Source of the DNA: Egibacteraceae bacterium
Lineage (GTDB): Bacteria > Actinomycetota > Nitriliruptoria > Euzebyales > Egibacteraceae
Reading direction: 5' to 3'
Assembly (NCBI GenBank): GCA_035540635.1
Contig: DATLGH010000092.1
Location: 1 to 59,026 of the forward strand
Length of the DNA: 59,026 bases
Shown here: in pieces, positions 18,680 to 54,885 of the stretch
How positions within the stretch are numbered: position 1 is the stretch's first letter
Layout of the letters: every line of letters begins with the position of its first letter
Made by a program: the position numbers and the translations under genes
Notes under the pieces: generated by a model
What the model was told of the DNA's origin: nothing
The model's database searches: none
Seen by the model: the letters and a program-made list of their open reading frames with translations, nothing else

Positions 18680-19678
18680 ATGTCCCGCGACATCGCCATA
18701 GACCTCGGAACGGCGAACACGCTCGTGTGGAGCAAGGGCCGGGGCATCGTGCTGAACGAACCGACGGTCATCGCGGTCAACCAGCGCAACGGCGACGTGC
18801 TCGCCATGGGCCACGAGGCGTACGCGATGATCGGCCGGACGCCGGGCCACATCACCGCCGACCGCCCGCTGCGCGGCGGTGCGGTCACCGACTTCGACAC
18901 CACCGCCCGCCTGCTGAAGCTGCTCATGCAGCAGGTCGGGGTGACCCGCTTCACGCGGGCGCGCGCGGTCATCTGCGTGCCGAGCGCGATCACCGAGGTC
19001 GAGCGCCGCGCCGTCCAGGAGGCCGCCCTCCAGGCGGGCGCGACCGCCGCCTACCTCATGGAGGAGCCGATGGCCGCGGCCATCGGCGCGGGCCTGCCGG
19101 TGCACGAGCCCGAGGGCTCGATGGTGATCGACGTCGGCGGCGGAACGTCGGAGGTCGCCGTCGTCTCCCTCGGCGGGGTCGTGGCGTGCCGGGCGGTGCG
19201 CGTCGGCGGCTTCGACATCGACGCGGCGCTGCAGGGCTTCGTCCGCCGCGAGTACGCGGTGGCAATCGGCGAGCGCACCGCCGAGGAGCTGAAGATCGCC
19301 ATCGGCTCCGCCTACCCCCAGGCCGAGGAGCCGAAGGCGGAGATCCGCGGCCGCGAGCTCGCCACCGGGCTGCCCAAGGTGGTGGTGGTTGGGGCGGAGG
19401 AGGTCCGCGAGGCCATCGAGGACGAGATCAGCCAGATCGTCAACGCGGTCGTCGACACGCTCGGTGAATGCCCCCCCGAGCTCACCCAGGACCTCCTGGA
19501 GCGGGGAATGTGGCTCGTCGGCGGCGGTGCGCTCCTGCGCGGGCTCGACGCCCGCATCGCCCAGGAGACCCAGCTCAAGGTGAACCTCATCGACGCCCCG
19601 CTCGAAGCGGTCGTGAAGGGCGCCGGCGCGACGATCGAGTCCTTCGACAACCTCAAGGACCTGTTCGTCAACAGCTGA
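18680..19678 (+). CDS. mreB: MreB-family actin-like protein
   Basis: The 332-residue cytoskeletal ATPase organises lateral cell-wall synthesis. Visible actin-fold motifs are phosphate 1 DIAIDLGTANTLVW, connect-1 region VICVPSAITEVERRA, YLMEEPMAAAIGAGLP, phosphate 2 MVIDVGGGTSEVAVV and adenosine-site GMWLVGGGALLRGLD. The length matches MreB. No mreC, mreD or pbp2 gene follows, unlike the usual cluster, so this may be a stand-alone MreB/Mbl paralogue. Confidence 0.92.
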   Translation: MSRDIAIDLGTANTLVWSKGRGIVLNEPTVIAVNQRNGDVLAMGHEAYAMIGRTPGHITADRPLRGGAVTDFDTTARLLKLLMQQVGVTRFTRARAVICVPSAITEVERRAVQEAALQAGATAAYLMEEPMAAAIGAGLPVHEPEGSMVIDVGGGTSEVAVVSLGGVVACRAVRVGGFDIDAALQGFVRREYAVAIGERTAEELKIAIGSAYPQAEEPKAEIRGRELATGLPKVVVVGAEEVREAIEDEISQIVNAVVDTLGECPPELTQDLLERGMWLVGGGALLRGLDARIAQETQLKVNLIDAPLEAVVKGAGATIESFDNLKDLFVNS

Positions 19679-19762: not shown

Positions 19763-22474
19763 ATGGCCGCCAGCCTTTTGACGCCCCTGCACCTGGCCGC
19801 CAGCCTGCTCGCGCTCTTCGCCGCCGCGGGGCTGGCGATCATCGTGCTCACGCGCCCCGGACGGCCCACGGCCGGTTCGGGCGGCCGGGGACCGGCGACG
19901 CTCGCGGCCGTGGGCGCCGTGGCGATCGCGGTCAGCCACGGCCTGTCGGGGGCGCTCGTCACCGGCCTGGGTGACACCGTCGCCTGGCTGCGCGCCGCCG
20001 GGCTCGTCCTCGTCGCGGTCGGGCTCTCCACCCGCGACGTCGCGCGGCTGAGCAGCCCGGCCGTGCTCATCCCCGTCGCGCCGCTGCCCGCCGCCGTGGT
20101 GAGCGCCGTGGCCGGCGGCCTGGCGGGGCTGCGGGCCCTCGTCGGCGGGCGGCGCACCGCGCTCGTCGGGCTCGCCCTGCTCGCCTGGGGGGCCGCGGAG
20201 TGGGTGGCGCATACCTCCGCGACGGCCGCGAGCTGGCTCGTGCTGGCCGGCTCGCTCGCGCTCGGGGCGTGGGTGTGGCAGGCGAGCGCCCGGCGGCTGC
20301 AGGCGAAGTTCGTGACGGCGTTCGTCGGCAGCCTGCTCGTCGTCGTGGTGCTGATGGCCGGGACCCTGTCGGGCCTCGGCTCGGCGGACCTCGTCGCCGA
20401 GGAGCTGCGCCGGCTGGAGGGCTCCGCGGAGCGCCTCGCGCAGGAGATCGCACGCTGGCCGGAGGACGCGGTCAGCGCGGGGGGCCCGTTCGCGGCCGCC
20501 GGCGAGGGGTTCCTCCGCATCGGCCCCGAGGACGAGAACCTCCTCGCCGTCGCGTACAACGCGTTCTTCTCGACGCAGGACTTCTTCGTGCTGCTCGGTC
20601 CCCGGGGGGAGAAGCTGTCGGCCTACTCGCCGACGGAGGACCTCGCCGTCGACTCGTTCGTCCTCGGTGTCGCGGGCACCCCCACGGTCGAGCGGGTCCT
20701 CGGCGGCGAGGCCGCGGCGGGCGACCTTATCACCGTCGCCGGCCAGATCGTCGCGGTCGGTGCGGTGCGCCTCGAGGACACCCCCGAGGAGGTGCTCGGC
20801 GTCCTGCTCACCGGCCGGGTGGCCGACGACGTGTGGGTCGAGAGCGCGGCGGTGCCCGACGTGCACGTCATCGTCGAGACCGGCGAGAACTTCACCGCGG
20901 CCTCCGAGGGGGTCGAGAGCGCGTCGCCGCGCATCGTCGCGCAGCTCGCCGACGGGGCGACCCGCCAGGCGCTGACCGCCGACGGGCGCGTGTGGTACGC
21001 GGCGGCGCAGCCCATCCGCGACCCGGGTGGCGACCCGGTCGGGCGGGTCGTGGCCGTCTCGACCTCCGACGTCATCGCCCAGCTCGAGCACGACATGGCG
21101 CAGCGGCTGTTCCTGCTCGCCCTGCTCGGCGCGCTGTTCGCCGGGGCGGTCGCGGCGCTCGTCACCCGGCGGCTCGTGGCGCCCATCCGCCGGCTCACCA
21201 CCGCGGCGGCCGCCGTCCGGGAGGGCGACCTCGAGGCGGAGGCCGCCATCGACAGCCCCGACGAGGTCGGCGAGCTCGGGCGCACGTTCAACGAGATGAC
21301 CGTGTCGCTCGCCGCCCAGTCCGCGCAGCTGCGGGAGGCCGCGACCGTCCAGTCCCGCCTGCGCGCCCGCATGGAGGCGCTGACGGCGTCGATGGGCGAC
21401 GCGCTCGTCGCCGTCGACGCCGACGGCAGGATCATCACGTTCAACCCCGCCGCCGAGCGCCTCGTGGGCCGCGCGGTCGACGACGTCCTCGGGCTGCCGC
21501 TCGAGGAGGTCCTGCGGGGCAGGGGCCCGGGCGACACCGCGGCGACCGCGGCCCTCGGCGCCCCCGACAGCGAGGAGGCCGTCGCCGTGCAGCTGCTGCT
21601 CGAGCGCGAGGGGCGCGAGCCGGTCCCGACCGCCGCCACGGCCGCTCCCGTGCGCGACCCCGACGGGCAGGTGCTCGGGCGGGTGCTCGTGCTGCGCGAC
21701 GTCACGCGCGAAGCCGAGATCGAGCGCATGAAGACGGAGTTCCTCGCCAACGTCAGCCACGAGCTGCGCACGCCCCTCACGCCGATCAAGGGCTACGCCG
21801 ACGTGCTCGCCCGGCGCGACGTCGGCCTCGACGCGACCCGCCGGTTCGCCGAGCAGATCCTCGCCTCTTCCGCCCGCCTCGAGCGGATCGTGCAGATGGT
21901 CGTCGACTTCGCGGCGCTCGACAGCGGGCGACTGCGCCTGAAGCGGGAACCGGTGGCGCTGTCCGACCTCGTCGGTGAGGCGCTCGACGAGTGGCGCGCC
22001 CGCCACCCCGAGCGTGACTTCCACCGCTGGGTGGCGCGGGCCCTGCCGCCGGTGCTCGTCGACGCCGGCATGCTGCGCCGCTGCCTCGACGAGCTGCTCG
22101 ACAACGCGGTGAAGTTCTCGCCGGGGGGCGAGCCGGTGACCGTCACCGCGAAGCTCGACACGGACCTGCCGACGCCGATGGTGCGCCTGTCCGTCCGCGA
22201 CCGCGGTGTCGGCATCGAGCCGAAGACCGCGGCGCGGATCTTCTCCGACTTCTACCAGGTCGACGCGAGCGAGACGCGCCACTACGGCGGCCTCGGACTC
22301 GGGCTCGCGCTCGTTCGGCGCATCGTCGACGGGCTCGGCGGGGACGCCTCCGTCGAGTCGCAGGCCGACTGCGGCTCGACGGTGAACCTCCTGCTGCCGG
22401 TCGCGGACCACTCCGCGGCGAAGGAGGAGGAGGTCGACGACAAGGCGTCGGAGCCGGCTCGGGGCGCGGGCTAG
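19763..22474 (+). CDS. Large orphan membrane histidine kinase (HAMP-PAS-HisKA-HATPase)
   Basis: The 903-residue protein has an N-terminal half with about six or seven membrane segments, followed by an extracytoplasmic sensor region (about residues 205-440). A further membrane helix (LLALLGALFAGAVAALVTR) precedes a HAMP domain, a PAS domain (ALVAVDADGRIITFNPAAERL) and the kinase core. The phospho-acceptor His666 is in FLANVSHELRTPLTPIKGY, the N-box is ELLDNAVKFSPGG, and the ATP lid includes YGGLGLGLALVRRIVDGLGG. No response regulator is adjacent. The domain order resembles WalK/ResE/PhoR-like kinases. Because it follows mreB and precedes envelope genes, a wall or envelope signal is plausible but unproven. 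Confidence 0.9.
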   Translation: MAASLLTPLHLAASLLALFAAAGLAIIVLTRPGRPTAGSGGRGPATLAAVGAVAIAVSHGLSGALVTGLGDTVAWLRAAGLVLVAVGLSTRDVARLSSPAVLIPVAPLPAAVVSAVAGGLAGLRALVGGRRTALVGLALLAWGAAEWVAHTSATAASWLVLAGSLALGAWVWQASARRLQAKFVTAFVGSLLVVVVLMAGTLSGLGSADLVAEELRRLEGSAERLAQEIARWPEDAVSAGGPFAAAGEGFLRIGPEDENLLAVAYNAFFSTQDFFVLLGPRGEKLSAYSPTEDLAVDSFVLGVAGTPTVERVLGGEAAAGDLITVAGQIVAVGAVRLEDTPEEVLGVLLTGRVADDVWVESAAVPDVHVIVETGENFTAASEGVESASPRIVAQLADGATRQALTADGRVWYAAAQPIRDPGGDPVGRVVAVSTSDVIAQLEHDMAQRLFLLALLGALFAGAVAALVTRRLVAPIRRLTTAAAAVREGDLEAEAAIDSPDEVGELGRTFNEMTVSLAAQSAQLREAATVQSRLRARMEALTASMGDALVAVDADGRIITFNPAAERLVGRAVDDVLGLPLEEVLRGRGPGDTAATAALGAPDSEEAVAVQLLLEREGREPVPTAATAAPVRDPDGQVLGRVLVLRDVTREAEIERMKTEFLANVSHELRTPLTPIKGYADVLARRDVGLDATRRFAEQILASSARLERIVQMVVDFAALDSGRLRLKREPVALSDLVGEALDEWRARHPERDFHRWVARALPPVLVDAGMLRRCLDELLDNAVKFSPGGEPVTVTAKLDTDLPTPMVRLSVRDRGVGIEPKTAARIFSDFYQVDASETRHYGGLGLGLALVRRIVDGLGGDASVESQADCGSTVNLLLPVADHSAAKEEEVDDKASEPARGAG

Positions 22475-22577: not shown

Positions 22578-23897
22578 ATGGTCCTCCCCCGCCGCAGCGG
22601 CACCAACACCTGCTCCGTGCGCCGCAACCGGGCGCTGCTGGTGCCGCTCGCGGCCGTCCTCTTCGTCGGCGCCTGCAGCGGCGGTGACGATCTCGGCGGG
22701 CAGGCGGTCGCGCGCCTCAGCTCCGGTGAGGCGGTCGAGGTGGCCATCGGCACGAGTTGGCAGCCCCTGTCGGTCGGCGACGAGGTGCCCGGCGGCGCCC
22801 GGGTGCGCACCGGTGAGAGCGAGGCGCGTCTGGCGTTCCGGGGCGGCGAGGTGTGGCTCGCCCCGCAGGCGGCGGCGGTGCTCGAGGACAACCGGCTCGA
22901 CCTGCTGCGCGGCGAGGCCCTCGTGCAGAGCAAGGGCGACCTCGACACCCGCTGGACCGACGTGGAGGTCGACGGCTCGGGCGTGTACCGCCTCACGCCG
23001 GGCATCGCCCCCCGGATCGGGGTCTACCGCGGCGAGATCCGCGTGCACCGGCCTCCCGAGACCCGCACGGTGCGCGCGCTGCGGGAGGCGGCGCTGTCCT
23101 CGCGGCGCCTGCCGCCCTCCGGGCAGCCGCTCGCCTACCGCCACGACGACCCATGGGACCGGCTGCTGCTGGCCGACGCGATCGCCTTCGACGGCGAGGC
23201 GGAGCGGCTCGTCCGCGGACTGACGAACGAGTACGGCACCGAGCCGCGGTCCGAGGACTTCTACGCGGGTTTTGCGGTCGCCCCCGAGCGCACCGTCCCG
23301 CTGGTCGCCCGGGCGGTGCGCGGAGGCGCGACGCCGGCCGGCGTGGGCCCGCCCGGCGAGGCGCTCCTGCTGCTGTTCGTCGCCCAGTCGGCGGCGGACG
23401 CGGACACGCCCGAGGCAATCGCCGCAGCGCTCGAGCGGGTGGTCGAGCTGCGGTCCGCGGGCGCGCGGTGGGGGCTCGTCGCCACCGAGCTCGGGATCAC
23501 CGCGCGCCGGCTCGCCGAGGTGGTCGACGCCGCTCAGCTTCGCTACAGCGCACGGGTCGCCCGGGTCGAGGGCGCGTCACCCCCGGCCGCCGCGACCGCG
23601 CCCGGCGCCGCTCCCCGACCGCAGCCGGGGGCGCCGGCCCCCGGAGGGGCGACCGAGCCTGCGAACCCCGCGCCTCCTGCGCCGCCCGCTCCCGCTCAGG
23701 AGCGGCCACCGCCCCCGCCGACCGGGCAGGAGCCGGCGCCGGGCGCCCCGGCCCCCGGCCCACCCGGTGGTGGGCAGGCCGACGACCCGCCCGGCGGCGC
23801 ACCGGGCCCCGCGCCGAACCCCACCGACCTGCTCGGCCGGCAGCCGTCGAAGGGCCTCGTCGAGTCGGTTGTCGACCTCCTCCTCGCCATCCCCTGA
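22578..23897 (+). CDS. FecR-like domain lipoprotein with a Pro-rich tail
   Basis: The 439-residue protein has a signal ending in the lipobox VGAC (Cys33). A FecR-like beta domain (about 45-165) contains VEVAIGTSWQPLSVGDEVPGG and VRTGESEARLAFRGGEVW, a pattern used by envelope proteins that bind polymers or signal to sigma regulators. A helical region to about 310 and a disordered Pro/Ala/Gly tail of about 110 residues follow. The last residues form an amphipathic helix (KGLVESVVDLLLAIP). The ligand is not identifiable. It is co-directional with the kinase, about 100 bp downstream. Confidence 0.75.
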   Translation: MVLPRRSGTNTCSVRRNRALLVPLAAVLFVGACSGGDDLGGQAVARLSSGEAVEVAIGTSWQPLSVGDEVPGGARVRTGESEARLAFRGGEVWLAPQAAAVLEDNRLDLLRGEALVQSKGDLDTRWTDVEVDGSGVYRLTPGIAPRIGVYRGEIRVHRPPETRTVRALREAALSSRRLPPSGQPLAYRHDDPWDRLLLADAIAFDGEAERLVRGLTNEYGTEPRSEDFYAGFAVAPERTVPLVARAVRGGATPAGVGPPGEALLLLFVAQSAADADTPEAIAAALERVVELRSAGARWGLVATELGITARRLAEVVDAAQLRYSARVARVEGASPPAAATAPGAAPRPQPGAPAPGGATEPANPAPPAPPAPAQERPPPPPTGQEPAPGAPAPGPPGGGQADDPPGGAPGPAPNPTDLLGRQPSKGLVESVVDLLLAIP

Positions 23898-23969: not shown

Positions 23970-25541
23970 GTGCTGAGCCCCGAGGAGATCGAAGGGCGGG
24001 ACTTCCTCGTCTCGTTGCGAGGATTCGACCGCGCCGAGGTGCGCTCGTTCCTCGCGGAGGTCGCCGCCCAGGTCGGCGAGCTGCAGGGGCGCCTCGAGGA
24101 CGCCGAAGCCGCCTATCGGGCGCAACGCGACGTCGAGCCGCCTACTGCCGACATCCCGGACGAGCCGCCGAAGGAGACCGGGACGTTCGCCGGGATCGGC
24201 CGGGAGACGGAGCGCATCCTCGAGGCGGCGAAGGAGGCCGCCGAGGGGATCATCCGCCAGGGCCGTGTCGACGCCGACCGCGAGGTGCAGGCGGCGCGGC
24301 GGGAAGCCGTGCGCATCATCGCGGAGGGCGAGCAGCGCCGGGAGGCCGTCGAGGCGGTTGTCGCCGGTCTCGAGGCCGCGCGGGCGGAGCTCTCCGAGCA
24401 CCTGCGCGAGGTCGGGCGCACGCTCGACCGGGTGCTCGCCGAGCTCGCCGAACCCGTTGCGGCCACCGTGCGCGAAGCGTTGACGGCCGAGCTGCGCGCG
24501 GCGGTGCCCGAAAGCACCGACAGCGGCGCGGGGGGCGCCGACGAGGCGCGAGAGGGTCCGGCGGAGCCGCCCCCGGGTGCCCTTGCCGACCCTGTCGACA
24601 TCGACGAGGGACCAACCGTCGACGCGCCGGGGTCGGCAGACGCGCGCGCGACCGGTGACGGCGCCGCCGCGGGCCACGAGGCGCCGGTCACGCCGGTGGA
24701 GGCGCGGGGCGAGGCGGGCGGAGCGGGGGAGCCCCGTGACGCGGCACGACCGGTGGAGACCTCCTCCGCCCCGGAGGCTGCGGCCGAGGACGTCAGCGAG
24801 CCCCCGGTCGACGAGCTCGCCGACGTCATCCCCCTCGACGAGGCGGCGGACGACCCGTCCGACCCCCACGGCCTGCGCGGGTCGGCGCTCACCCCCCTGC
24901 GCCCCACCATGCTGCGGGCCATCAAGCGCGCGTTGCAGGAGGTGCAGAACGTGACCCTCGACCGGTTGCGCCGGGCGGGCGGCGAGGCCGAGCCGACGAT
25001 GCTCCTGCCCGGCGACGACGAGCTGAGCACGATCGCCGCGGCGGCCGCGGATCCACTGGCGGGCGCCTACCGTGCGGGCACCGATGTGGCTTCGCTGATC
25101 GCCGACCGCGAGCTGCCCGATCCGTCCGCCGACCGCGACCTCGTGGCCGACTTCCGCTCGGACGCCGCCGAACGGGTTCGCAGCCCGCTGGCCGCGACGC
25201 TGCGCATGGGCCGCTCCACGAACGAGCCGCCGCCCGCGCTGTTCGACCGGGTGGCCGCGGTGTTCGCCGAGCTGCGCAGCAGCGTCGCCGAGGAGCTCGC
25301 CACGACGCACCTCATGCGCGCCTACGAGCTCGGCCTGATCGACGCGTGGGCCGCAGGCGGCATCACGCACCGGCGGTGGGTGCTCGGGCGGGAACCCCGG
25401 TGCCCTGAGGCGCGTTGTCGCCATAACGACCAGGCCGGCGTGGTGGCGATGGGCGCCACCTATCCGAGCGGCCACGAGGTCCCCCCCGTCCACGTCGGCT
25501 GCAGCTGCACAACCGTCCCCGTATCGGAGTCCTCTCCATGA
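23970..25541 (+). CDS. DivIVA-domain protein with a C-terminal phage-head-like (Mu F/gp7-type) module
   Basis: The N-terminus (SPEEIEGRDFLVSLRGFDRA through VRSFLAEVA, residues 3-32) is a DivIVA domain, which binds curved membrane and recruits growth-zone proteins. Coiled-coil follows to about residue 170, then an acidic disordered linker (about 175-310), then an alpha-helical domain of about 200 residues. The very end contains THRRWVLGREPRC, RCRHNDQAGVV, YPSGHEVPPVHVGCSC. This Cys/His and PPVHxxCxC arrangement is typical of phage Mu F / SPP1 gp7 minor head proteins, which is unexpected on a DivIVA protein. Membrane-proximal cytoplasmic location is expected. The stop overlaps the next small ORF (ATGA). 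Confidence 0.8.
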   Translation: MLSPEEIEGRDFLVSLRGFDRAEVRSFLAEVAAQVGELQGRLEDAEAAYRAQRDVEPPTADIPDEPPKETGTFAGIGRETERILEAAKEAAEGIIRQGRVDADREVQAARREAVRIIAEGEQRREAVEAVVAGLEAARAELSEHLREVGRTLDRVLAELAEPVAATVREALTAELRAAVPESTDSGAGGADEAREGPAEPPPGALADPVDIDEGPTVDAPGSADARATGDGAAAGHEAPVTPVEARGEAGGAGEPRDAARPVETSSAPEAAAEDVSEPPVDELADVIPLDEAADDPSDPHGLRGSALTPLRPTMLRAIKRALQEVQNVTLDRLRRAGGEAEPTMLLPGDDELSTIAAAAADPLAGAYRAGTDVASLIADRELPDPSADRDLVADFRSDAAERVRSPLAATLRMGRSTNEPPPALFDRVAAVFAELRSSVAEELATTHLMRAYELGLIDAWAAGGITHRRWVLGREPRCPEARCRHNDQAGVVAMGATYPSGHEVPPVHVGCSCTTVPVSESSP

Positions 25542-25603
25542 GCAACGCCGAGCCGCGTCGCGGCCGTCGCGGCGACCGCCGCATCCTCGGAACCTGCCGG
25601 TGA
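25538..25603 (+). CDS. 21-codon ORF bridging two genes by start/stop overlaps
   Basis: A 21-residue basic peptide (MSNAEPRRGRRGDRRILGTC plus R) begins with an ATGA overlap on the DivIVA-domain gene stop. It ends with a GTGA overlap on the UPF0182 start. It has no Shine-Dalgarno of its own. The exact fit at both ends suggests that ribosomes ending the upstream gene are passed through it to the membrane-protein gene. Whether the peptide itself matters is unknown. Confidence 0.45.
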   Translation: MSNAEPRRGRRGDRRILGTCR

Positions 25604-28590
25604 TCCACGAACTCCGCCGCCGCTGGTGGCTGCTCCTCCTCGGGCTCGTCGTCCTCCTGCTGGTGTTCGGGACCCGGGTCGCCACCTTCTACACCGACGT
25701 CCTGTGGTACGACAGCCTCGGCTTCAGCCAGGTGTTCTGGACGTTGCTCACGACGCGTGTCGGCCTGGGTCTCGTCACCGGGCTGCTCATGGCGGGCCTG
25801 CTCGCGGGCAACCTCATGCTCGCGCGGCGCCTCGCGCCGCCCTACCGCATCCCATCGGCGCAGGAGGAGAGCGTCGAGCGTTACCGGGAGGCCGTCGAGC
25901 CGTTCGCCCGGCCGCTGCTGCTCGGCGTTGCGCTGCTCATCGGTGTGCTGTCGGGGCTGTCGATGGTGGGGGAGTGGGACACCTACCTGCTGTGGGCGAA
26001 CGCGACCGAGTTCCGCATCGCGGACCCGCAGTTCGGCCGCGACGTCGGCTACTTCGTCTTCGTGCTGCCGTTCCACGCGCTGGTGAACTCGTGGCTGTTC
26101 ACCGCGCTCGCGCTCACCACCGTGCTGTCGGCGGTCGCTCACTACCTGTTCGGCGGCATCCGCCCCCAGTCGCCGGGGCAGAAGATCGCCCCGCAGGTCG
26201 CCGTCCACTTGTCGATCCTGCTCGCCGGCCTCGTCGCCGTGCGCGCCTGGGGCTTCTGGCTCGACCGGTACATGCTGAGCTACTCGCAGCGCGGGACCGT
26301 CACGGGCCTGTCCTACACCGACGTCAACGCCCAGCTCATCGCGCTGCAGCTGCTCGCGGTCATCGCCGCGGTGACGGTCGTGCTGTTCCTCGTCAACATC
26401 CGTTTCCGCGGGTGGCTGCTGCCCTCGGCCGGTGTGGGCATCCTTGTCGTCGCCGCGGTCGTGCTCGCCGGGGTGTACCCGGCGGTCATCCAGCGCCTGC
26501 AGGTGGTGCCCCAGGAGCTCCCGCGCGAACGGCCGTTCATCGACCGCAACCTGCAGATGACCCGCTACGCCTTCGGTCTCGTGATCGACGACGACGTCGA
26601 GTTCGAGCGCTTCCCCGCCGCCTCGTCGCTGACGCCCCAGCAGGTGGCCGACAACCAGCGGACGATGCAGTCGATCCGGATGTGGGACCCCGCAACGCTG
26701 CAGACCACCTACAAGCAGCTGCAGGAGCTGCGGACCTACTACGACTTCCGCGACGTCGACGTCGACCGCTACGTGATCGACGACGACCTCCAGCAGGTGA
26801 TGATCAGCGTCCGTGAGCTGAGCGAGACGGACCTGCCCGCCGCCGTGCAGAACTGGCAGAACCGCCGGCTGGTGTTCACGCACGGCTTCGGGCTGGTGGC
26901 GAGCGACGTGAGCATCGCCGACCGGGGCGGCCAGCCGGTTTTCTTCGTGCGCAACATCCCACCGGAGGGCGTGGAGAAGCTGCAGATCGAGAACCCGCGG
27001 ATCTACTTCGGCGAGAACCCGCCCGAGTACTCGATCATCAACACCGACCAGCGCGAGCTCGACTACCCCGTCGAGGGGCAGGACCCGGCGACCTACGAGT
27101 ACACCGGGCAGGACGGGGTGCGGATCGGGGGGCCGCTCGGGCGCCTCGCCTTCGCACTGCGCTTCGCCGAGCCGAACTTCCTCTTGAGCGACCTCATCAA
27201 CCCCGACTCGCGGGTGCTGTTCACCCGCCACATCCGCCAGCGTGTCGAGGCGGTTGCGCCGTTCCTCAAGTACGACCACGACCCCTACCCGGTCGCCGTC
27301 GACGGGCGGGTGAAATGGGTGCAGGACGCCTACACGACCACCGACATGGTGCCGTACTCCGAGCGCATCGAGCTCGCGGAGCACACGCTGGCCGAGCAGC
27401 GCCAGCTCGTGCCGACTCAGGGGCCGGACGGCGAGCTCGTCCTCGTCGAGCAGACCCGCCAGCTGCCTGGGCTGACCGGTCAGGCGAACTACATCCGCAA
27501 CAGCGTCAAGGCCGTCATCGACGCCTACGACGGGACCGTCGAGCTGTTCGTCGTCGAGGAGGACGACCCGGTCATCCGGGCCTGGATGAACGTCTTCCCC
27601 GACAGCTTCACGTCGGTCGCGGAGGCGAGCGAGGATCTCCAGCGCCACTTCCGCTACCCCGAGGACATGTTCCGGGTGCAGGCCTCCATGTTCGAGCGCT
27701 ACCACATCATCGACGCCGAGCAGTTCTTCTACGGCGAGGACGTTTGGACGACGCCGCTCGACGAGGCGTTCACCGCCAACCAGCAGGCGCTGCCGGCGGC
27801 CCAGCAGCAGCGGCCGCGGGAGATGCGGCCGTACTACCTGCTCATGCGGCTGCCCGGCGAGGAGGACGAGGAGTTCGCCCTCATCCAGCCGTTCACGCCT
27901 TTCGACCGGCCGAACCTCATCGGCTGGCTAGCGGGGCGCAGCGACGGCGAGAACTACGGCCAGCTCAAGGCCTACATCATGCCGCCCGACCGCACGGTGT
28001 TCGGGCCGAACCAGGCGCAGTCGCAGATCGACCAGGACGCCGAGATCGCCCGCCAGATCGCCCTCTGGAGCCAGTCGGGGTCGCGGGTGATCTACGGCAA
28101 CCTGCTCGTCATCCCCATCGAGGACTCGCTGCTCTACGCCCAGCCGTTCTTCCTGCGCGCCGAGCGGGGCGAGATCCCCGAGCTGCGGGCGGTGGCGCTC
28201 GTCTTCGGCCAGGAGGTCGTCTTCGAGAACACGTTGAGCGACGCGCTCGTGGTCATGTTCGGCGAGGGTGCCGGCGGCATCGACCTGCCCGAGGGCGTGG
28301 CCGCGGACGAACTGCCCGTGCAGCGAGAGCCGAGAACCGCGCCTGACGGCGAAACCGGCACGTTCGACCCGCAGGTCGCGACCCTGATCCGCCAGGCGCT
28401 CGAGCGGTTCTCCGCCGCCGAGGAGGCCCTGCGCGACGGCGACCTCGGCACCTACCGCGACGAGACCCGGGCCGCCAACGACCTGCTCGAGCGGGCTCAG
28501 GACCTCATGGACGGCGCCGCGCCCGCCGCCACGGACATGGACGAGCCGACGGACGCCGCGGACGAGGACCCGGAGGCCCCGGCCGCCTGA
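25600..28590 (+). CDS. UPF0182 family large membrane protein
   Basis: The 996-residue protein has seven membrane segments in about the first 290 residues (first: WWLLLLGLVVLLLVFGTRV), followed by a large extracytoplasmic region. Typical UPF0182/COG1615 stretches include TDVLWYDSLGFSQVFW, NIPPEGVEKLQIENPRIYFG, EQFFYGEDVW and RVIYGNLLVIPIEDSLLY. The acidic C-terminal tail is disordered. The family is widespread in actinobacteria and its function is unknown. Translation starts at GTG 25600, coupled to the 21-codon ORF. Confidence 0.93.
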   Translation: MIHELRRRWWLLLLGLVVLLLVFGTRVATFYTDVLWYDSLGFSQVFWTLLTTRVGLGLVTGLLMAGLLAGNLMLARRLAPPYRIPSAQEESVERYREAVEPFARPLLLGVALLIGVLSGLSMVGEWDTYLLWANATEFRIADPQFGRDVGYFVFVLPFHALVNSWLFTALALTTVLSAVAHYLFGGIRPQSPGQKIAPQVAVHLSILLAGLVAVRAWGFWLDRYMLSYSQRGTVTGLSYTDVNAQLIALQLLAVIAAVTVVLFLVNIRFRGWLLPSAGVGILVVAAVVLAGVYPAVIQRLQVVPQELPRERPFIDRNLQMTRYAFGLVIDDDVEFERFPAASSLTPQQVADNQRTMQSIRMWDPATLQTTYKQLQELRTYYDFRDVDVDRYVIDDDLQQVMISVRELSETDLPAAVQNWQNRRLVFTHGFGLVASDVSIADRGGQPVFFVRNIPPEGVEKLQIENPRIYFGENPPEYSIINTDQRELDYPVEGQDPATYEYTGQDGVRIGGPLGRLAFALRFAEPNFLLSDLINPDSRVLFTRHIRQRVEAVAPFLKYDHDPYPVAVDGRVKWVQDAYTTTDMVPYSERIELAEHTLAEQRQLVPTQGPDGELVLVEQTRQLPGLTGQANYIRNSVKAVIDAYDGTVELFVVEEDDPVIRAWMNVFPDSFTSVAEASEDLQRHFRYPEDMFRVQASMFERYHIIDAEQFFYGEDVWTTPLDEAFTANQQALPAAQQQRPREMRPYYLLMRLPGEEDEEFALIQPFTPFDRPNLIGWLAGRSDGENYGQLKAYIMPPDRTVFGPNQAQSQIDQDAEIARQIALWSQSGSRVIYGNLLVIPIEDSLLYAQPFFLRAERGEIPELRAVALVFGQEVVFENTLSDALVVMFGEGAGGIDLPEGVAADELPVQREPRTAPDGETGTFDPQVATLIRQALERFSAAEEALRDGDLGTYRDETRAANDLLERAQDLMDGAAPAATDMDEPTDAADEDPEAPAA

Positions 28591-28638: not shown

Positions 28639-28712
28639 CGCGAGGTGGAGCAGTTCGGTAGCTCGCCGGGCTCATAACCCGGAGGTCGCGGGTTCAAATC
28701 CCGCCCTCGCAA
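28639..28712 (+). tRNA. Initiator tRNA-Met (anticodon CAT)
   Basis: The cloverleaf is 74 nt. The acceptor strand CGCGAGG pairs with CCTCGC plus an unpaired 1-72 C-A position, the bacterial initiator hallmark. The anticodon stem CCGGG/CCCGG carries the three consecutive G-C pairs required of initiators, with anticodon CAT at 28673-28675. The T-arm is GCGGGTTCAAATCCCGC. The 3' CCA is not encoded (the next bases are CTACTA). Its 3' end borders the island integrase, so it is the probable attachment site. Confidence 0.97.
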
Positions 28713-28772
28713 CTACTAAACGGCCAGGTCAGCGGGCATTCGCTCGAAGCTCGTCCGGCCACCACATCACCC

Positions 28773-28979: not shown

Positions 28980-30299
28980 GTGGGTGAGACACAGCGCATC
29001 ACGTCGCACTCGATCTACAAGCGGGGCGGGGAGCGCAAGTGGACGCTCGAGGTGCGGCGCAAGGGCTTCGGCACGTCGAAGACCCGCTGGCCGACGGAGA
29101 AGGCCGCCCGGCAGGAGCTGGCCCGGCTGAAGAAGCTGGACGAGGCCGGCGTGCGTCCGACTGGGCCGAGGACGCCTTTCGTCGAGATCGCCGAGGCGTG
29201 GCAGGACTGGTACTTCTCCATCGCCGACATCGCCAGCGCGACCATCGTCGGACACAAGGGCGCGCTCAACGCCTGGATCGTCCCGGCACACGGTGAGTGG
29301 GGGTTCGTCAACCACCGCGTCGAGAGCGTGACCCGCGAGGAGATCACCCGGCTGATGGTCACCATGCGCGAGCAGGGACGAGCCGAGTCGACCATCGCCA
29401 ACACCTACACCACCCTCCGGCTGGTGATGGCCTATGCCGTGGACATGCGGTACATCGAGCGCAGCCCCTTTGACGCGATGACGGCAGCCAACAAGCCACG
29501 CATCCGACGTCGCCGGACCCCCGAGATCTACGAGGTGGCCGACATCTGGAACGTCTTCGACGCGATCCGCCGCCGCCGCGGGACCGCCTTCCCGGACTTC
29601 GCGCTGGCATGGCTGACGGCCTACTACCAGGGCATGCGCATCAGCGAGGTCCTCCAGGTTCGAGCCGCCGACTTGAACTGGACCCGCGGCACTCTGATGC
29701 GCCGCTCGATCAAGACCGACGGTGTCCCCGGGCCCAGGTACCTGCTCGGTCCGCTGGGACCGTTGCTGCGGGAGTACGTGGACTCCCACGGCATCACCGG
29801 CTACCTGTGGCCGCGACTCGGAAGGCGGCAGCTGGACCCGGCGAAGGTCGAGAAGGCGGCTCTGATGCGCGCGGAGGGTTGGACCTGGGTTGCCATCGGA
29901 CAGGAGTTGGGGGTATCCAACGTCTGGGCCAAGCGGCTCTGGGAGGCCTCGCAGGGACCATTGTCCTTCCCTGACGAGCCCGCGACGAAGGACTACTTCC
30001 GCCAGCAGGTGTGGGTGCCCGCGCTCGAGGACGCCGGACTGACCGGGTTCCTCGCCAAGGATCTGAGGAACACCTGCATCGTCCACCTCATCGACGGCGA
30101 CATGACGGGTGAGCCGTGGGACCAGCCCGCGGTGGCGCATCACGTTGACCACGACCTGCGGATGACCCAGCAGATCTACTACCGCTTCCGCCCCGAGCGC
30201 CTGACGGGCATGAAGGCCAACTCCCACTCCCTGGAGGAGATGAGCGTGGACGAGGCGATCCGCCGCTACCGGCCCGACTCCTCCCCGCGGGCCAGGTAG
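28980..30299 (+). CDS. int: Tyrosine-type site-specific integrase
   Basis: The 439-residue protein has an N-terminal arm-binding region (SIYKRGGERKWTLEVRRKGF), a core-binding SAM-like domain (about 66-160) and a catalytic domain. Catalytic Arg220 is in YYQGMRISEVLQ. The second box reads AKDLRNTCIVHL (Arg363), with Lys and Asn where His and His are usual. The third box is VAHHVDHDLRMTQQIYYRF, giving candidate His387/388 and nucleophile Tyr400/401. Residues about 289-322 (AEGWTWVAIGQELGVSNVW) look like an inserted helix-turn-helix. The GTG start at 28980 has a weak purine stretch upstream. It should integrate the island at the initiator tRNA gene. Confidence 0.88.
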   Translation: MGETQRITSHSIYKRGGERKWTLEVRRKGFGTSKTRWPTEKAARQELARLKKLDEAGVRPTGPRTPFVEIAEAWQDWYFSIADIASATIVGHKGALNAWIVPAHGEWGFVNHRVESVTREEITRLMVTMREQGRAESTIANTYTTLRLVMAYAVDMRYIERSPFDAMTAANKPRIRRRRTPEIYEVADIWNVFDAIRRRRGTAFPDFALAWLTAYYQGMRISEVLQVRAADLNWTRGTLMRRSIKTDGVPGPRYLLGPLGPLLREYVDSHGITGYLWPRLGRRQLDPAKVEKAALMRAEGWTWVAIGQELGVSNVWAKRLWEASQGPLSFPDEPATKDYFRQQVWVPALEDAGLTGFLAKDLRNTCIVHLIDGDMTGEPWDQPAVAHHVDHDLRMTQQIYYRFRPERLTGMKANSHSLEEMSVDEAIRRYRPDSSPRAR

Positions 30300-43822: not shown

Positions 43823-44974
43823 TCAGGGAGCTGTGCTGACGATCTGAGGAAGATCGTCCACCCTGGCAATGACCGTGCGATTGGTGGGCATTAGGGTGCC
43901 GCCCGCCCGTCTGGCGAGGCCTACGACACGGATGCGCGTTCCTTGCTGTACCTGACGAAGCACGGGATAGGTCGCTGGTGAGAGTGGGGAGAGCGCGGCA
44001 ACGTCTCCCGCCTCTTCGGTTCCCTCGTCAACTCGCAACTGAAGCGCGAGAGCTGATCCGCTGTGAATCGGTTCCGGCACCGAGGACGCCAGGCCGCCCA
44101 CTGCCGCTGTCCCGAGGTGCTCACGCCACGAGCTGCCGGCGGCTGCCCAGAACGCCGGGCAGACCAACTGAAATGGACACCACCGGCACGTTTCGGGCGA
44201 CGGGCTCGCAAGGTCAAGAACGCCCGCACCACCCGAGACTGCGTCGTTGTACTTGTCGAGCAACTCAAGGGTCTCCGCCGCCACTCGCTCGCAGTCCCCC
44301 GCGTCGAACTCGATCTCGACAGGAAGGCCCTCCATCGGAAGGAGCACGCCGCGGGCGGGCCAGCGCCCAGTCGAGTCTCTGACCAGGAACGCGTAGAGCT
44401 GAAGCTGCCGGACGTACGTCGCCTTCACGACATGGTCCTCTCGGTGCTCAATCACGTCGCCGGTCTTGTAATCGATGACGGCGTCGCCCCGCAGCAGATC
44501 TGGACGCCCCACAAGTCGGCCGCCAGCGGCTGTGAGCCATCGTTCGTGACGATTCGTAGGGCGGCTGTCGCCAACAACCGGTGGCATACCTGCGTTGGCC
44601 ACCTCAGCACCTCCGTCACCCCCGATCTCATGCGCCCGCATCAGCGCCATGGCCCGGATGAGGTGGTAGCCGGGCCAGCGGTCTGGAACGCCGAACCGGC
44701 GGTTGAGTGGGTGCGCCTCCGCGCGCTCGTGCTGTTCGCGGACCGCTTGCTCCCATACGTCGGCTGCGCTGGCGTCGCTCGCGTGCGCACCCGCGGCCGC
44801 GAGGACCTCGTGATACGCCGTACCGAGCCACGCCTTCGGATTCCCGAGTACCAGTGCAGTGGCGTTCTCCAAGCGGGACAGGCCAGCCCGAAGAGGGCAG
44901 AGCCGAAGCAGCTCTGCAAGGCTGGGGCTTACGGTCCAGATCGTCGTCAGCTCAAGCGGCGGCGGAGCCGGCAT
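43823..44974 (-). CDS. Cas4/RecB-like PD-(D/E)XK nuclease with an iron-sulfur cysteine set
   Basis: The 383-residue protein has the PD-(D/E)XK layout: His55 in GTAYHEVL, Asp159 in VGRPDLL, Asp168-x-Lys170 in AVIDYKTGD, and the QxxxY motif QLQLYAFL. Cys26 (LRLCPLRA) and the C-terminal trio Cys263/Cys266/Cys272 (CRWCPFQLVCP) match the 4Fe-4S ligands of Cas4, AddB and PDDEXK_1 exonucleases. A C-terminal extension of about 110 residues looks like an OB-fold (GTRIRVVGLARR). Its ATG lies 2 bp after the helicase stop, so it is co-translated and probably processes DNA ends made by the helicase. Confidence 0.85.
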   Translation of the reverse strand: MPAPPPLELTTIWTVSPSLAELLRLCPLRAGLSRLENATALVLGNPKAWLGTAYHEVLAAAGAHASDASAADVWEQAVREQHERAEAHPLNRRFGVPDRWPGYHLIRAMALMRAHEIGGDGGAEVANAGMPPVVGDSRPTNRHERWLTAAGGRLVGRPDLLRGDAVIDYKTGDVIEHREDHVVKATYVRQLQLYAFLVRDSTGRWPARGVLLPMEGLPVEIEFDAGDCERVAAETLELLDKYNDAVSGGAGVLDLASPSPETCRWCPFQLVCPAFWAAAGSSWREHLGTAAVGGLASSVPEPIHSGSALALQLRVDEGTEEAGDVAALSPLSPATYPVLRQVQQGTRIRVVGLARRAGGTLMPTNRTVIARVDDLPQIVSTAP

Positions 44975-44976
44975 GA

Positions 44977-47900
44977 TCAGAATGGCCTCCGCAGCACCTC
45001 GAACACCGACTTGAACTGCACCTGCTGGCACCCAGCTGCCACGGCCTGCGCATAGGCGGCGGCGAGCTGCGGTCCGAAGCTGATGGGGTTGGAGTCCCAC
45101 AAGGGATGCGTGATTATCTCGGCTTGGTTAGCTCGGCGGCCTGCCTGCAACCCGCCGAACGTGACCTGCTGCCAGCCCGGCATCGCCGCGAAATAGGGGG
45201 CTGCCGCCGCGACATCTAGGCCTTGCCAGTACGGAACAGTGAAGTCGATCGAAGCCGTGGGGTCCAGCGCCAGCCGAGCGAGATCAAGCCCGAGCCGCCA
45301 GTCGAGAATACTGTGATACGGCAGGTTGCTGAAGTCTCGAAGACAGTCAGGACAGGATGTCGTGCAAGCATTTGGCCCAGGCCCTGCGTGCTGTTGGCCC
45401 ACGAGGAAGCCGTGGAAGGCGGGGCTTCCTTGCCCCACCATGTAGTGGAGCAGGGCCTCGGTCTCGGGGGGATCGCCCAGCAGCGAGGCGTACCCAGCCC
45501 CATTTTCCAAACTGTCGGAGAGAAAGATCTGCCCGATGATGTCGCCACCCGCGTCCCGAAGGACCCGCAGGCCGACGTTGATCTCGCGCTCGTGCACGTC
45601 GAGGCGGTCAGCCGCGGCTCGCCGAGCCAAGAAGCCGAACGAGTACAGCGCAGCGCGGGTAGCGAGGCCGTCATCGCCGGCGGGGGACCTCCGAACTCCC
45701 GCCGGCCAATTGGAAATTCCGAGGACCATCACGTCCGTCGTCTTGACCGAACCCAAGGCTCGCTGATCTACGCCGGCGCCGGGATCAATCGGCGGGTTGT
45801 TCACTCCGATGTTCGCCAGCGACAGTCGCGTCACCCACGTTTCACCCTGCGCGAGCTTCTCAAAGTCGAACAGGTGGCCGTCGTTGTCGTTGATGACGTA
45901 GACCGTCTCCTGGTCTGCCCACACCTCGAAGTTCGCCTGCTGCGTCACGGGCAGCGGCGTCACGCCCATCTTCGGTCGCGAAGCGCGCGGGGTCCACTCG
46001 AACGTGCCGTCGAAGTCGCGGCTCCGGCCGTACCAGGTTCGGAATCCAGCCGGTTGCGAGAGGCTGGTGATCCTGTACCCGGGGTCCTGCTGCGGCGTCG
46101 CCCCACAGACGGAGCAGTTCGCAGGCGGGGGTTGAGTGCCATCGACGGCTTGGCAAGCCGAGCAGACGCCGACATCAAGTGGTGGACCCAGCGGATCGGC
46201 AGCCTCCGCGGGCTGATTGCCCTGCGGTCGGTAGTCCACAACGCCCACCGCGGTGTGGATCAGCCCGTCCTTCACGGTTTCCGAGCCGGGCGCGAACTGG
46301 CTGATCGCGATATCCAGTTCTCGATCGACCACATCATCTGGTGGCCAGGGATACGCGCGCGTCGGGCGGTCATGGAACAGGTATCGCGTCCGGGTGGGAA
46401 AGCCGAACATCGGTAGGACGCCGGCGTTCGCGAGCCGCTCGCTGAGGGCAGCCTGCGGGTAGCGCGGATCAGTTGAGACCGCCGTGACGTCCTGCGCCAG
46501 CTGCTGCGTGCAGTAGTTGATCAGTGCCTGGCGCTGTGCCTGGAGCACGGGGTCGCTGTAGGACAGCAGGACGTCCGTGACCCTGCCGACCTCGACCGCG
46601 TTCTGCTGGAGCCAGGCCGAGACAAGTTGCGCGGTCGTCGCTCCGGGAGGACTGCCCGGCGGAGGCTGCGGCGGCGGCTGGGTCCATGCCGAAGCAGCGC
46701 CGAACTCACCATGCACGCTCTCCCCACCACCGCCCGCGAACAGGTTCAGCGCCGCGAATCCCTGCCGCAGCATTTCCTTTGTTAAGACCCGCTTGATGAT
46801 GCTCTCGCGTCGCATGTCCACGTACGGCTGCGGAGGCGGATCCGACGTGATGCGCTGGGGGCGCTGGAAGTAGTAGTCATCGTGACTACGGCCCCGGCAA
46901 AGGGTCAGCGCCACCGACATGCCCGAACCTCGGCGGCCGGCTCGACCAACTCGCTGCTGGTAGTTGAAGCGCATGGGCGGCATGTTCGCCATCATCACCG
47001 CGACGAGCGTGCCGATGTCGACGCCCGCCTCCATGGTCGTGGTGACGCTCAAGAGGTCCACTGGGTCGGCCAGGGGATTCTCTTGCGGTGCAGGCAAGCA
47101 GATGTCCTGGAACAGCCGCTGCCGGCGCCGTGCATCCGACTTGTTCGTTTGGCCCGTGAGTTCCTCGCAGTTCAATCGGAAGAGGCCCCCTGCCAAAGTC
47201 GCCAGATAGGAGTAGTAGTCCGGTGACAGCTGGGCACCTGCAGTCGCCTGCGCCGGACCCAACTGAGCCAAGCAGTCAGCGCACACGCCGCCGGAGGGGT
47301 TGATGTGCGTGCGCCGGCATTGAGTGCACTCGAAGTAGGTGGAGGCAGGACCCGCCAGGCAAATTGAGGGAACGTTCAGGTAGAAGTGAGCGGTGTCGAG
47401 AACGCCCGCCGCCGTGAGGAAGTCGAAGACGTCGCTCATGTAGTTGATTGCATTCAGCCCGGCCCGCTGCGCGATCGTCGTGAGGTATGCCGCGACATAA
47501 CCCGGTGCCGAGTTCAGAGACGTGCAGGAATGCGTCGAGAGACGCTTGCGCGCCCCGAAGAGGAAGATCGCACCGTCGGCGCCTTCTTGGACCAACTGGG
47601 CGGGCGCGGGAGTCGCGAGGCGATCGACTGTTGGCAGCGCCAGCAGGAGGGACTCGATGCTCCTGCGCCCAGATGCGAAGATGATGTCCATCAGCTCCAC
47701 GAGGGCCCCGTCCTGCAGCCGGGTCAGGTGAACCTGCTGCGGCTGCGTCAGGTGGCCTGGCGGCTTGGGTGTCGGTGCAGCACCGGATGGCCAAAGATGC
47801 AAGTCCCTCCAACTGCCCCGGCGATTCTGTGGGTCGGTCCACATGACTGCCTGGGTGTAGCCGGCCGGGTTCATTCCCTCAGCGAGCATTCGCTCTGCGA

Positions 47901-50547: not shown

Positions 50548-51479
50548 TGCACCTGCTGCCGGAGTAGTTGGGCGGCGAGACGCGCTACTTCTGAGGGAAC
50601 GCTGCGGTACCCCAGGCGGCCTGACCGTGGATCGAAGTCGGGGAGATAGCCAGAGCAGAGAACCAGTGCCCGCTCGATGAGAAGTGGTGGCCTGCAGATC
50701 GCGGGGACGGACAGCGTCTCGGTGGCCGCATCGTAGGCCAGGAGGCCGCGCCTCTTCCGCATGACCGCGTACTTGCCGACCTGGACTGGGACGCGGTAGG
50801 AGCACCCGTGCCAGCGCAGGTAGTAGAAGCGTTGATGCTTCATGACGAACCGGAAGAGCCCGGTTCGCTCGCGCATCGCGTCAGTGGTCGTGCACTCAAC
50901 CCATCCAAGTCGCGAGGACGAGAAGCGGTGGACCGCCCAACCGGGGGTCTCTGGAATTGCCATCCTGAACCAGGTGGCCGGATCGCGCACGTCGGGTACT
51001 GCGGACAGGATGGCAGTCGCTGCATCTGCCTGGACGAGGATGCCCAGCCACTCCGCGGAGAGCGCCTCGGCGGCCCCGCGAAGCACGATCCGCTGGGGCA
51101 TGCCCGGCACATCCACCGCGACGACGTCGAGATCGGCGCAGCGATCCAGTCTTTGCATGAGCTCCGGGGACCGAGCTCCGCAGAGAAGGCCCCCGTATGG
51201 GTTGCTCGGAAGCATCGCGACCGCAGGCGGGACAACGCGCCAGTCGTGGCCTGCCGTGGTCGAGAAGAACTCGACGTGACTGAGGCGCTGCAGGGCGAAG
51301 CGGGCGCGCTGGTAGACCGGCAAGTCTGAGCTGGCCAGGGCAGGCCCGTCCTGGCCGTCACCTGCATTAGACTGCTCGTAGTCCTGCTCGACGCCCAACT
51401 CCTCAACAGCCCCGCGGAACTGTGACCAGGAGCCTTGTCCCTTCGCTGAGAGCCAGAGCAGAAGGTGTTCAAGGCTCAC
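50544..51479 (-). CDS. Druantia II-associated protein of unknown fold (candidate DruG)
   Basis: The 311-residue protein has no motif I recognise. Its N-terminus (LEHLLLWLSAKGQGSWSQFR) looks like a small winged-helix or helical domain. The middle is alpha/beta. The C-terminus (PPLLIERALVLCSGYLPDFD, then SVPSEVARLAAQLL) looks conserved. GTG 51479 has GGAGG 7 nt upstream and overlaps the preceding gene by 11 nt; the open frame upstream of it is not coding. Position directly before the giant helicase fits DruG of Druantia type II, but that rests on gene order only. Confidence 0.55.
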   Translation of the reverse strand: MSLEHLLLWLSAKGQGSWSQFRGAVEELGVEQDYEQSNAGDGQDGPALASSDLPVYQRARFALQRLSHVEFFSTTAGHDWRVVPPAVAMLPSNPYGGLLCGARSPELMQRLDRCADLDVVAVDVPGMPQRIVLRGAAEALSAEWLGILVQADAATAILSAVPDVRDPATWFRMAIPETPGWAVHRFSSSRLGWVECTTTDAMRERTGLFRFVMKHQRFYYLRWHGCSYRVPVQVGKYAVMRKRRGLLAYDAATETLSVPAICRPPLLIERALVLCSGYLPDFDPRSGRLGYRSVPSEVARLAAQLLRQQVQ

Positions 51480-54030: not shown

Positions 54031-54885
54031 TCAGCCCCTACCTGCAACCTGCCGGATTTCGGGCGGCGCTGAGCCAGGGGAACCGGTGGACGGCCGTTCC
54101 GCGTGCTGCCCAGCAGAAGGACCACCCAGGTCGGACGCCGGCCCCCTCACCGCGTGCTCGGGGGGCGAATCGCCTCGAGGCCCGTCCAGCGGTGCCAAGC
54201 CGCGCCTCTGGCAGGCATCTACTGCAGGGCAGATTCCGCAGCGCGGAGTTGCGGGCAGACACACCAGTTGGCCATGCACGACCAGATTGACATGGTAGGG
54301 CCGCCTGCGGTCCGCGGGGACCGCCGCTTGCAGCGTGTCGTGCAGAGACCGGCGGCGGTAGACAGCCGATCGCGGTATCACACCCGCCCGCCAGAGAATC
54401 CTGAAGGTGTTCCCGTCCACTGGGAATACCTCGCGCCGAAGGCTGTAGAGGAGCACGCAGCGGGCCCCCTTCCACGAGAGCCCGGGCAGCCGTGTGAGGA
54501 CGCGCTCCGCCTCAGCGTCGCCCAGTTCGTGAAGGGCATCGAGCGACAGCTTTCCGAACCCATCGCGTACAGCTGCGAGGAGATCCTTGATCGACCTAGC
54601 CTTCTGCCGGTGAAGACCCCCCGCGCGCAACACGGCCGCGATGTCGTCGACCGATGCTCCTTCGGCGTCCTCCCATCGAGGGAACGCCGAGCGCAGGCTT
54701 TGCCAGGTCTTCCGGAAACGCGGCAGGTCGGTTTGGAAGCTCAGGATGATGTAGACGGCCTCGTCGAGAGCATTCGCCTGGTTACCCAACACCGCCTCCG
54801 GTGCCCCGTACGCGGCATCGAGGAGGTCATCGACCAGGCGCAGCCTCTGCCGGCCCCCGGGAGCGAACCGGAATCCCGCGGTCAT
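54031..54885 (-). CDS. Endonuclease III-like HhH-GPD DNA glycosylase with 4Fe-4S cluster
   Basis: The 284-residue protein has the HhH-GPD fold: Gln51 in IILSFQTD, helix-hairpin-helix LTRLPGLSWKGARCVLL with catalytic Lys139, and catalytic Asp157 in VFPVDGNTFRIL. The Fe-S ligands are Cys209-x6-Cys216-x2-Cys219-x5-Cys225, the exact spacing of endonuclease III. A disordered tail of about 54 residues follows. Its ATG overlaps the methyltransferase stop (ATGA). Since 5-methylcytosine deaminates to thymine, a glycosylase paired with a C5 methyltransferase most likely repairs the resulting G:T mismatches, as Vsr or Mig-type enzymes do. A restriction role is the alternative. Confidence 0.82.
   Translation of the reverse strand: MTAGFRFAPGGRQRLRLVDDLLDAAYGAPEAVLGNQANALDEAVYIILSFQTDLPRFRKTWQSLRSAFPRWEDAEGASVDDIAAVLRAGGLHRQKARSIKDLLAAVRDGFGKLSLDALHELGDAEAERVLTRLPGLSWKGARCVLLYSLRREVFPVDGNTFRILWRAGVIPRSAVYRRRSLHDTLQAAVPADRRRPYHVNLVVHGQLVCLPATPRCGICPAVDACQRRGLAPLDGPRGDSPPEHAVRGPASDLGGPSAGQHAERPSTGSPGSAPPEIRQVAGRG

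Follow-up and report, generated by a model that had tools for sequence, protein, structure and literature searches.

In an Egibacteraceae bacterium, a single reading frame encodes a protein made up of an N-terminal DivIVA domain, a long helix, a disordered linker and a C-terminal module of the MuF/SPP1-gp7 kind. The window analysed, that is, the whole stretch of DNA in which the gene lies, comprises 59,026 nucleotides (assembly GCA_035540635.1, contig DATLGH010000092.1), and the positions of the gene, its parts and its neighbours are given in Table 1. The phage origin of the module is well supported, as is the view that the DivIVA-MuF protein is ancient and inherited and represents neither a recent nor a local domestication. 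The best explanation of the data, which we hold at a probability of roughly 0.55, is the capture of a portal-MuF domain, in an ancestor of several actinobacterial classes, by a DivIVA-type scaffold that has been paired with a UPF0182 membrane protein ever since, the module serving as a docking head, probably for UPF0182.

Two models score above their cut-offs at the N-terminus: Pfam DivIVA (PF05103) matches residues 2-125 (E 6.1e-8, 33.1 bits against a cut-off of 28) and TIGR03544 matches residues 2-34 (26.6 bits against 22). The mean pLDDT of the full-length AlphaFold2 model is 74.8, with the blocks of the C-terminal module mostly above 90; modelled alone from an input of 13 sequences, the module reaches a pLDDT of 91.1 and a pTM of 0.87. 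The sequence-only reading of this DNA had placed the module at residues 310-523, which is nearly right, although the folded module already starts at about residue 299. The protein terminates five residues past the last module element, and the aligned relatives terminate within the module tail. An assembly or frame artefact was ruled out, as the same open frame is found in many genomes. Two relatives seem to be broken or shortened, one by a frame break (L034) and one as a short version (L032); both were left unaltered, and the tree described below was restricted to sufficiently full matches.

Table 1. Location within the window of the fusion gene, the parts of its product and the neighbouring genes.
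Feature	Position	Strand	Basis or remark
MreB/Mbl-family protein	18680..19678	+	Pfam MreB_Mbl 2.1e-128; kept upstream in part of the loci
PAS/HAMP histidine kinase	19763..22474	+	kept upstream in part of the loci
439-aa protein, upstream	22578..23897	+	no Pfam match; some loci have a relative at this position
Fusion gene, 523 aa, GTG start	23970..25541	+	single open frame, kept whole in relatives
Residues 1-53, N-terminal DivIVA membrane-binding domain with RG[FY]D motif	23970..24128	+	PF05103, TIGR03544, model helices 4-9 and 21-53
Residues 72-178, single long helix (107 residues), coiled-coil-like	24183..24503	+	AlphaFold2 full-length model, pLDDT about 91-95 over most
Residues 179-298, linker rich in Ala/Pro/Glu, predicted disordered	24504..24863	+	pLDDT <50 at 179-293
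Residues 299-518, MuF/SPP1-gp7 module: helical part and small beta/Cys-His end	24864..25523	+	profiles, predicted fold
Residues 478-513, Cys/His end of the module: C478, C483, H508, C511, C513	25401..25508	+	alignment conservation
UPF0182 membrane protein, directly downstream	25600..28590	+	Pfam UPF0182 1.4e-284

The kinship of the module with phage proteins was assessed both from the window's own sequence and from an alignment of the C-termini of 25 relatives (A3), which was the basis of the family counts and of the cellular profile used below. The window's own C-terminal piece matches PHROG 2662 (portal) at 1.5e-9, TIGR01641 (SPP1_gp7) at 5.9e-4 and Pfam Phage_Mu_F (PF04233) at 0.19, the latter two falling under their curated cut-offs; judged from the window sequence alone, the phage match would be of moderate strength and suggestive. 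Amongst the relatives, PHROG 2662 matches all 25 C-termini (best 3.6e-17), TIGR01641 matches 17 and PF04233 matches 14 (best 5.4e-6), and a separate PF04233 scan of 149 genomes returned the fusion as the matched protein in three of them (G139, G178 and G169), each time just under the family cut-off. Once the relatives are included the assignment is strong: the C-terminal module is a MuF/SPP1-gp7 domain, as the sequence-only reading had claimed in describing a DivIVA start joined to a Cys/His-type module of this kind.

Profile comparisons with phage minor head proteins are likewise significant, so that the outcome which would have refuted the sequence-only reading, a lack of any such match, did not arise. 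Alignment of the cellular C-termini by hhalign against seven annotated phage proteins, phage Mu F among them, a set chosen independently of the cellular motif, gave 92.7% with an E of 4e-7. The value against viral portal/MuF loci is higher (99.0%, E 5e-18), but a pattern from the cellular motif had served to find those loci (L133-L148) and the comparison is in part circular; the phage Mu F set, a further 80 viral loci, the Pfam, PHROG and TIGR matches and the fold search therefore serve as the independent checks. A cellular-only profile of the 25 C-termini recovered 78 of the 80 loci, which had been fetched with a phage query (L133) itself originally found through the cellular motif, and it matched none of 3536 shuffled and none of 3536 reversed open reading frames. 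Searching a library of viral models with the predicted structure of the module gave 106 matches at E <= 0.001. The first is to a phage portal protein (E 2.1e-7) with a TM-score on the query of 0.72, a value that rises to 0.74 in another match, and the named ones among the 50 matches listed are portal, minor capsid and head morphogenesis proteins or similar phage proteins; the fold match spans the whole 222-residue module model. For 9 of the 80 viral loci the profile match extends into the first 20 module positions. The nine viral proteins scanned with Pfam, namely seven from these full-reach loci together with L133 and L134, all consist of a portal domain and a C-terminal Phage_Mu_F domain, that of L134 being under the cut-off. 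The module thus resembles the C-terminal half of such portal-MuF fusions, the nearest phage form amongst the viral proteins scanned.

Foldseek comparison of the module with the PDB gave no chain at E <= 0.001, a profile search of PDB sequences gave weak unrelated matches only (best E 0.0048, ribosomal uS19), and VIA-align ranked helical bundles of a generic kind first (MxB stalk, Z 9.3), with which the module may share no more than a common arrangement. Viral contigs scanned with the Acidimicrobiia-type alignment (A8) yielded no relative, and hence no nearer phage for that branch.

The fusion shares with the MuF/SPP1 gp7 superfamily (PF04233, TIGR01641 and the portal-fused MuF of PHROG 2662) its profile, its predicted fold and its C-terminal place behind a scaffold domain. 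It differs in being without the portal domain, in lying outside a prophage on the chromosome beside UPF0182, in being joined to DivIVA and in the lack of the Cys/His end from some members. No head, portal or capsid genes were identified among the open reading frames scanned at the locus, and the fusion is therefore a domain relative of MuF/gp7 and not a phage minor head protein. The polymorphic toxins of temperate phages also hold a MuF domain within a multidomain protein; however, in the account of them given in the accessible part of PMC5576092 the MuF domain is N-terminal and is followed by the toxin, whereas in the fusion it forms the C-terminal end and no toxin comes after it. The literature searched held no report of a DivIVA-MuF architecture: in the accessible parts of PMC10491603 and PMC10457771 the name "gp7" is given to other proteins, and in those of PMC10884400 and PMC9430571 DivIVA is present only in the title of a reference.

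The distribution of the fusion was examined at several depths. Within the window's order, the whole protein used as query matched 16 of 30 genomes, some of them through the DivIVA part only, and a first scan of the contigs of named genomes with the single protein as query gave no match. With the module alignment, the distribution in the window's class is patchy (17 of 66 genomes); matches were also found in 56 of 396 genomes in a draw from the phylum, 8 of 24 in the class of genome G160 and 102 of 148 in the class of genome G169, where the proportion is 91 of 110 amongst genomes of good quality and 101 of the 102 module-bearing genomes have a single copy. The DivIVA-module architecture thus occurs in three class-level groups of Actinomycetota. 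Twelve loci with names come from Nitriliruptorales, Egibacter, Egibacteraceae MAGs, unplaced Actinomycetota, Actinomycetes and Actinobacteria MAGs, and one Acidimicrobiia MAG.

In an unrooted tree built on 133 columns from 54 cellular and 75 viral domains, all the cellular domains fall on one side of a branch with an SH-aLRT of 100; so short a tree is compatible with a single capture without proving one. Since MuF domains are widespread among phages, as described in the accessible part of PMC5576092, the transfer is inferred to have run from phage to cell. Profile kinship, the cellular clade and the breadth across classes bear out the earlier proposal that a DivIVA-type protein domesticated a phage module. 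A leftover of a local prophage was considered separately and rejected: the integrative element in the window lies past UPF0182 and tRNA-Met, the module and the DivIVA half are alike in their base composition at the codon positions (GC3 0.91 and 0.92, respectively), and the two genes are found paired in other classes too.

All genes of the immediate locus lie on the forward strand, in the order MreB/Mbl, PAS/HAMP histidine kinase, the 439-aa protein (presumably FecR-like), fusion and UPF0182. The last of these is the most constant neighbour. UPF0182 adjoins the DivIVA-type gene in all 12 of the larger loci from the window's order, two of which are without the module. Of 44 loci, 42 match the module, and in 40 of the 42 UPF0182 follows downstream in the same orientation; as five locus pairs among the 44 are the same DNA, the distinct count is 35 of 37. 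Throughout the class of G169, UPF0182 is the next gene downstream, in the same orientation, in 98 of 103 places, with a median gap of 122 bases between profile ends, and in the sole two-copy genome of that sample (G227) it follows each copy. The two genes of G227 (L159 and L160), each with its own UPF0182, are both without the Cys/His end.

UPF0182 itself is found in 138 of the 148 genomes of this class, against 102 with the module, and therefore does not need the fusion. Among 20 regions upstream of a module-less UPF0182, one encodes DivIVA with a shortened helical part (L275) and two encode a DivIVA adjoining UPF0182 with no module match (L274 and L276); several others encode what we take to be the PDZ/Lon-type protease usual at this position. 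At locus L263 an MreB-like gene lies near UPF0182 and no fusion gene was detected between them. No relative of UPF0182 was found among PDB sequences at E <= 0.01, nor was a function for it found in the literature searched.

Within the module, conservation of the Cys/His end was counted over 22 rows, as 3 of the 25 shared a name and were dropped: C511 and C513 are identical in all 22, C483 and H508 in 21, and C478 in 19. Elsewhere this end is lost. At 11 of the 103 places in that class the match extends no further than profile position 183 (class of G169), so that the Cys/His end is missing or unrecognisable (one more, at a contig edge, was not counted), and half of 20 fetched loci, which had been picked partly for short matches, are without it, in agreement with a reading of their open reading frames. 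Given these 11 places, and the absence of a module match from L274 and L276, some lineages can do without the module. Selection appears to have kept the helical part most widely, with the metal-like Cys/His end secondary.

The DivIVA half varies as well. Of 10 distant relatives compared with DivIVA models, five score above the TIGR03544 cut-off, two are weak, two have a weak Wag31 match only, and L174 has none. This last belongs to a lineage (L058/L090 and L059/L174) in which the module is kept and a DivIVA match was not seen, the DivIVA search being that reported for L174; L174 and L090 show the module and a coil with no recognisable DivIVA domain at the start, which has either been lost or lies behind a true start elsewhere. 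Many Acidimicrobiia-type members carry, between coil and module, a motif of the form [L/I]FA[K/R][L/I]R, possibly a binding motif, and it is retained near the C-terminus in members without the module (3' ends or linkers of L274, L276 and L275).

On another contig of the same genome lies an ordinary DivIVA (Pfam 1.9e-29), placed after genes that we take to be sepF and YggT and before a presumed ileS. The best reading is that the fusion is a second DivIVA-type scaffold of this genome, beside the canonical DivIVA near sepF. Its likeness to the DivIVA/Wag31 family of polar scaffolds (PF05103) lies in the N-terminal DivIVA domain followed by a long helix, whilst the fusion adds a phage-type module of 220 residues on a disordered linker and coexists with a separate canonical gene. 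DivIVA domains, as described for Wag31 in the available portions of PMC7340271 and PMC12097788, act in membrane binding and assembly.

The preferred reading runs as follows. In an ancestor of several actinobacterial classes, a DivIVA-type protein would have acquired at its C-terminus the MuF (gp7-like) module that ends a tailed-phage portal protein, and the resulting fusion gene would have been passed down ever since in the chromosome, paired with UPF0182. The N-terminal DivIVA domain would bind curved membrane, the long helix would oligomerise, and the disordered linker would hold the helical MuF module at a distance from the membrane as a docking head. Its partner would most likely be the UPF0182 membrane protein, presumably co-transcribed, and the scaffold would concentrate it where the envelope grows. 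Its adjacency makes UPF0182 the best candidate; adjacency by itself is insufficient to show binding, and UPF0182 is here a putative partner. A place in growth zones would follow from the DivIVA domain. A stronger version, which we regard as doubtful, is that half of a portal-vertex protein of a phage was domesticated long ago and that this portal-type MuF head, on a curvature-sensing scaffold, makes up, together with UPF0182, a membrane machine at poles or septa that is a core component of envelope growth, the module now organising a host ring or gate in place of the gate of a capsid.

The main rival explanation, possible though we would not expect it to prove correct, is that the module is the oligomerisation head of the scaffold itself, a former of rings or clusters, and that UPF0182 is a mere co-expressed neighbour. 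The portal is a ring-forming protein, and the module of the phage relatives hangs on a portal, as seen in the fused viral proteins; moreover, it is the helical part that outlasts the Cys/His end in several lineages. However, self-assembly leaves unexplained why UPF0182 should be adjacent in 98 of 103 places and beside both G227 copies.

A tether, in which the module would bind DNA or the nucleoid and attach the chromosome to a pole or septum, with the Cys/His end as a metal knuckle, seems improbable. MuF and portal phage relatives operate at the DNA gate, and the Cys/His positions are strongly conserved wherever this end is kept, but the Pfam, PHROG and TIGR searches gave no match to a DNA-binding family, and the Cys/His end is lost in 11 of 103 places.

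The sequence-only reading had also raised the idea of a phage-sensing decoy, in which a module mimicking the portal-associated MuF would be held by DivIVA as bait for incoming or assembling phage. The module is indeed portal kin, and an integrative element at tRNA-Met with Druantia-like and Dnd/Ssp-like genes starts 0.4 kb past UPF0182. Defence genes show patchy turnover; the fusion is instead housekeeping-like in the class of G169, near-universal (102 of 148 genomes), single-copy in all but one of these and fixed beside UPF0182. The Cys/His end, which a mimic should keep, is missing from half of the 20 fetched loci, a set picked in part for short matches, and the defence element is separated from the fusion by a tRNA and an integrase. 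An anti-phage role is thus very unlikely, and this part of the earlier interpretation was not upheld. The element itself occupies positions 28639-56132 of the window, beginning at tRNA-Met (28639-28713) with an integrase-like open reading frame at 28980-30299. Its Dnd/Ssp-like frames are DndF-like (32044), DndG-like (33996) and SspH/DndH-like (35632), and its Druantia-like set, on the minus strand, comprises DruE (44980-50805), DruK (43826-45100), DruL/DruF-like (50547-54024) and a cytosine methylase (54885-56132).

Least credible is a chance likeness, in which a helical Ala/Glu-rich C-terminus resembles MuF only through its Cys/His motif: the window's own PF04233 and TIGR01641 scores would allow it, yet it is refuted by the PHROG 2662 matches in every relative, the hhalign comparison with the independently chosen phage set, the recovery of 78 of 80 phage loci against empty shuffled and reversed controls, and the viral-fold search.

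Domesticated phage structural domains often serve as weapons, delivery tails or transfer agents. A domain of the capsid gate within a DivIVA-type scaffold, kept across classes, would be a different use of such domains. UPF0182, a widespread membrane family, gains from this pairing a conserved partner gene and a testable handle, and the fusion may prove useful as a marker of growth zones in Acidimicrobiia and Nitriliruptoria relatives, where these zones have been little studied.
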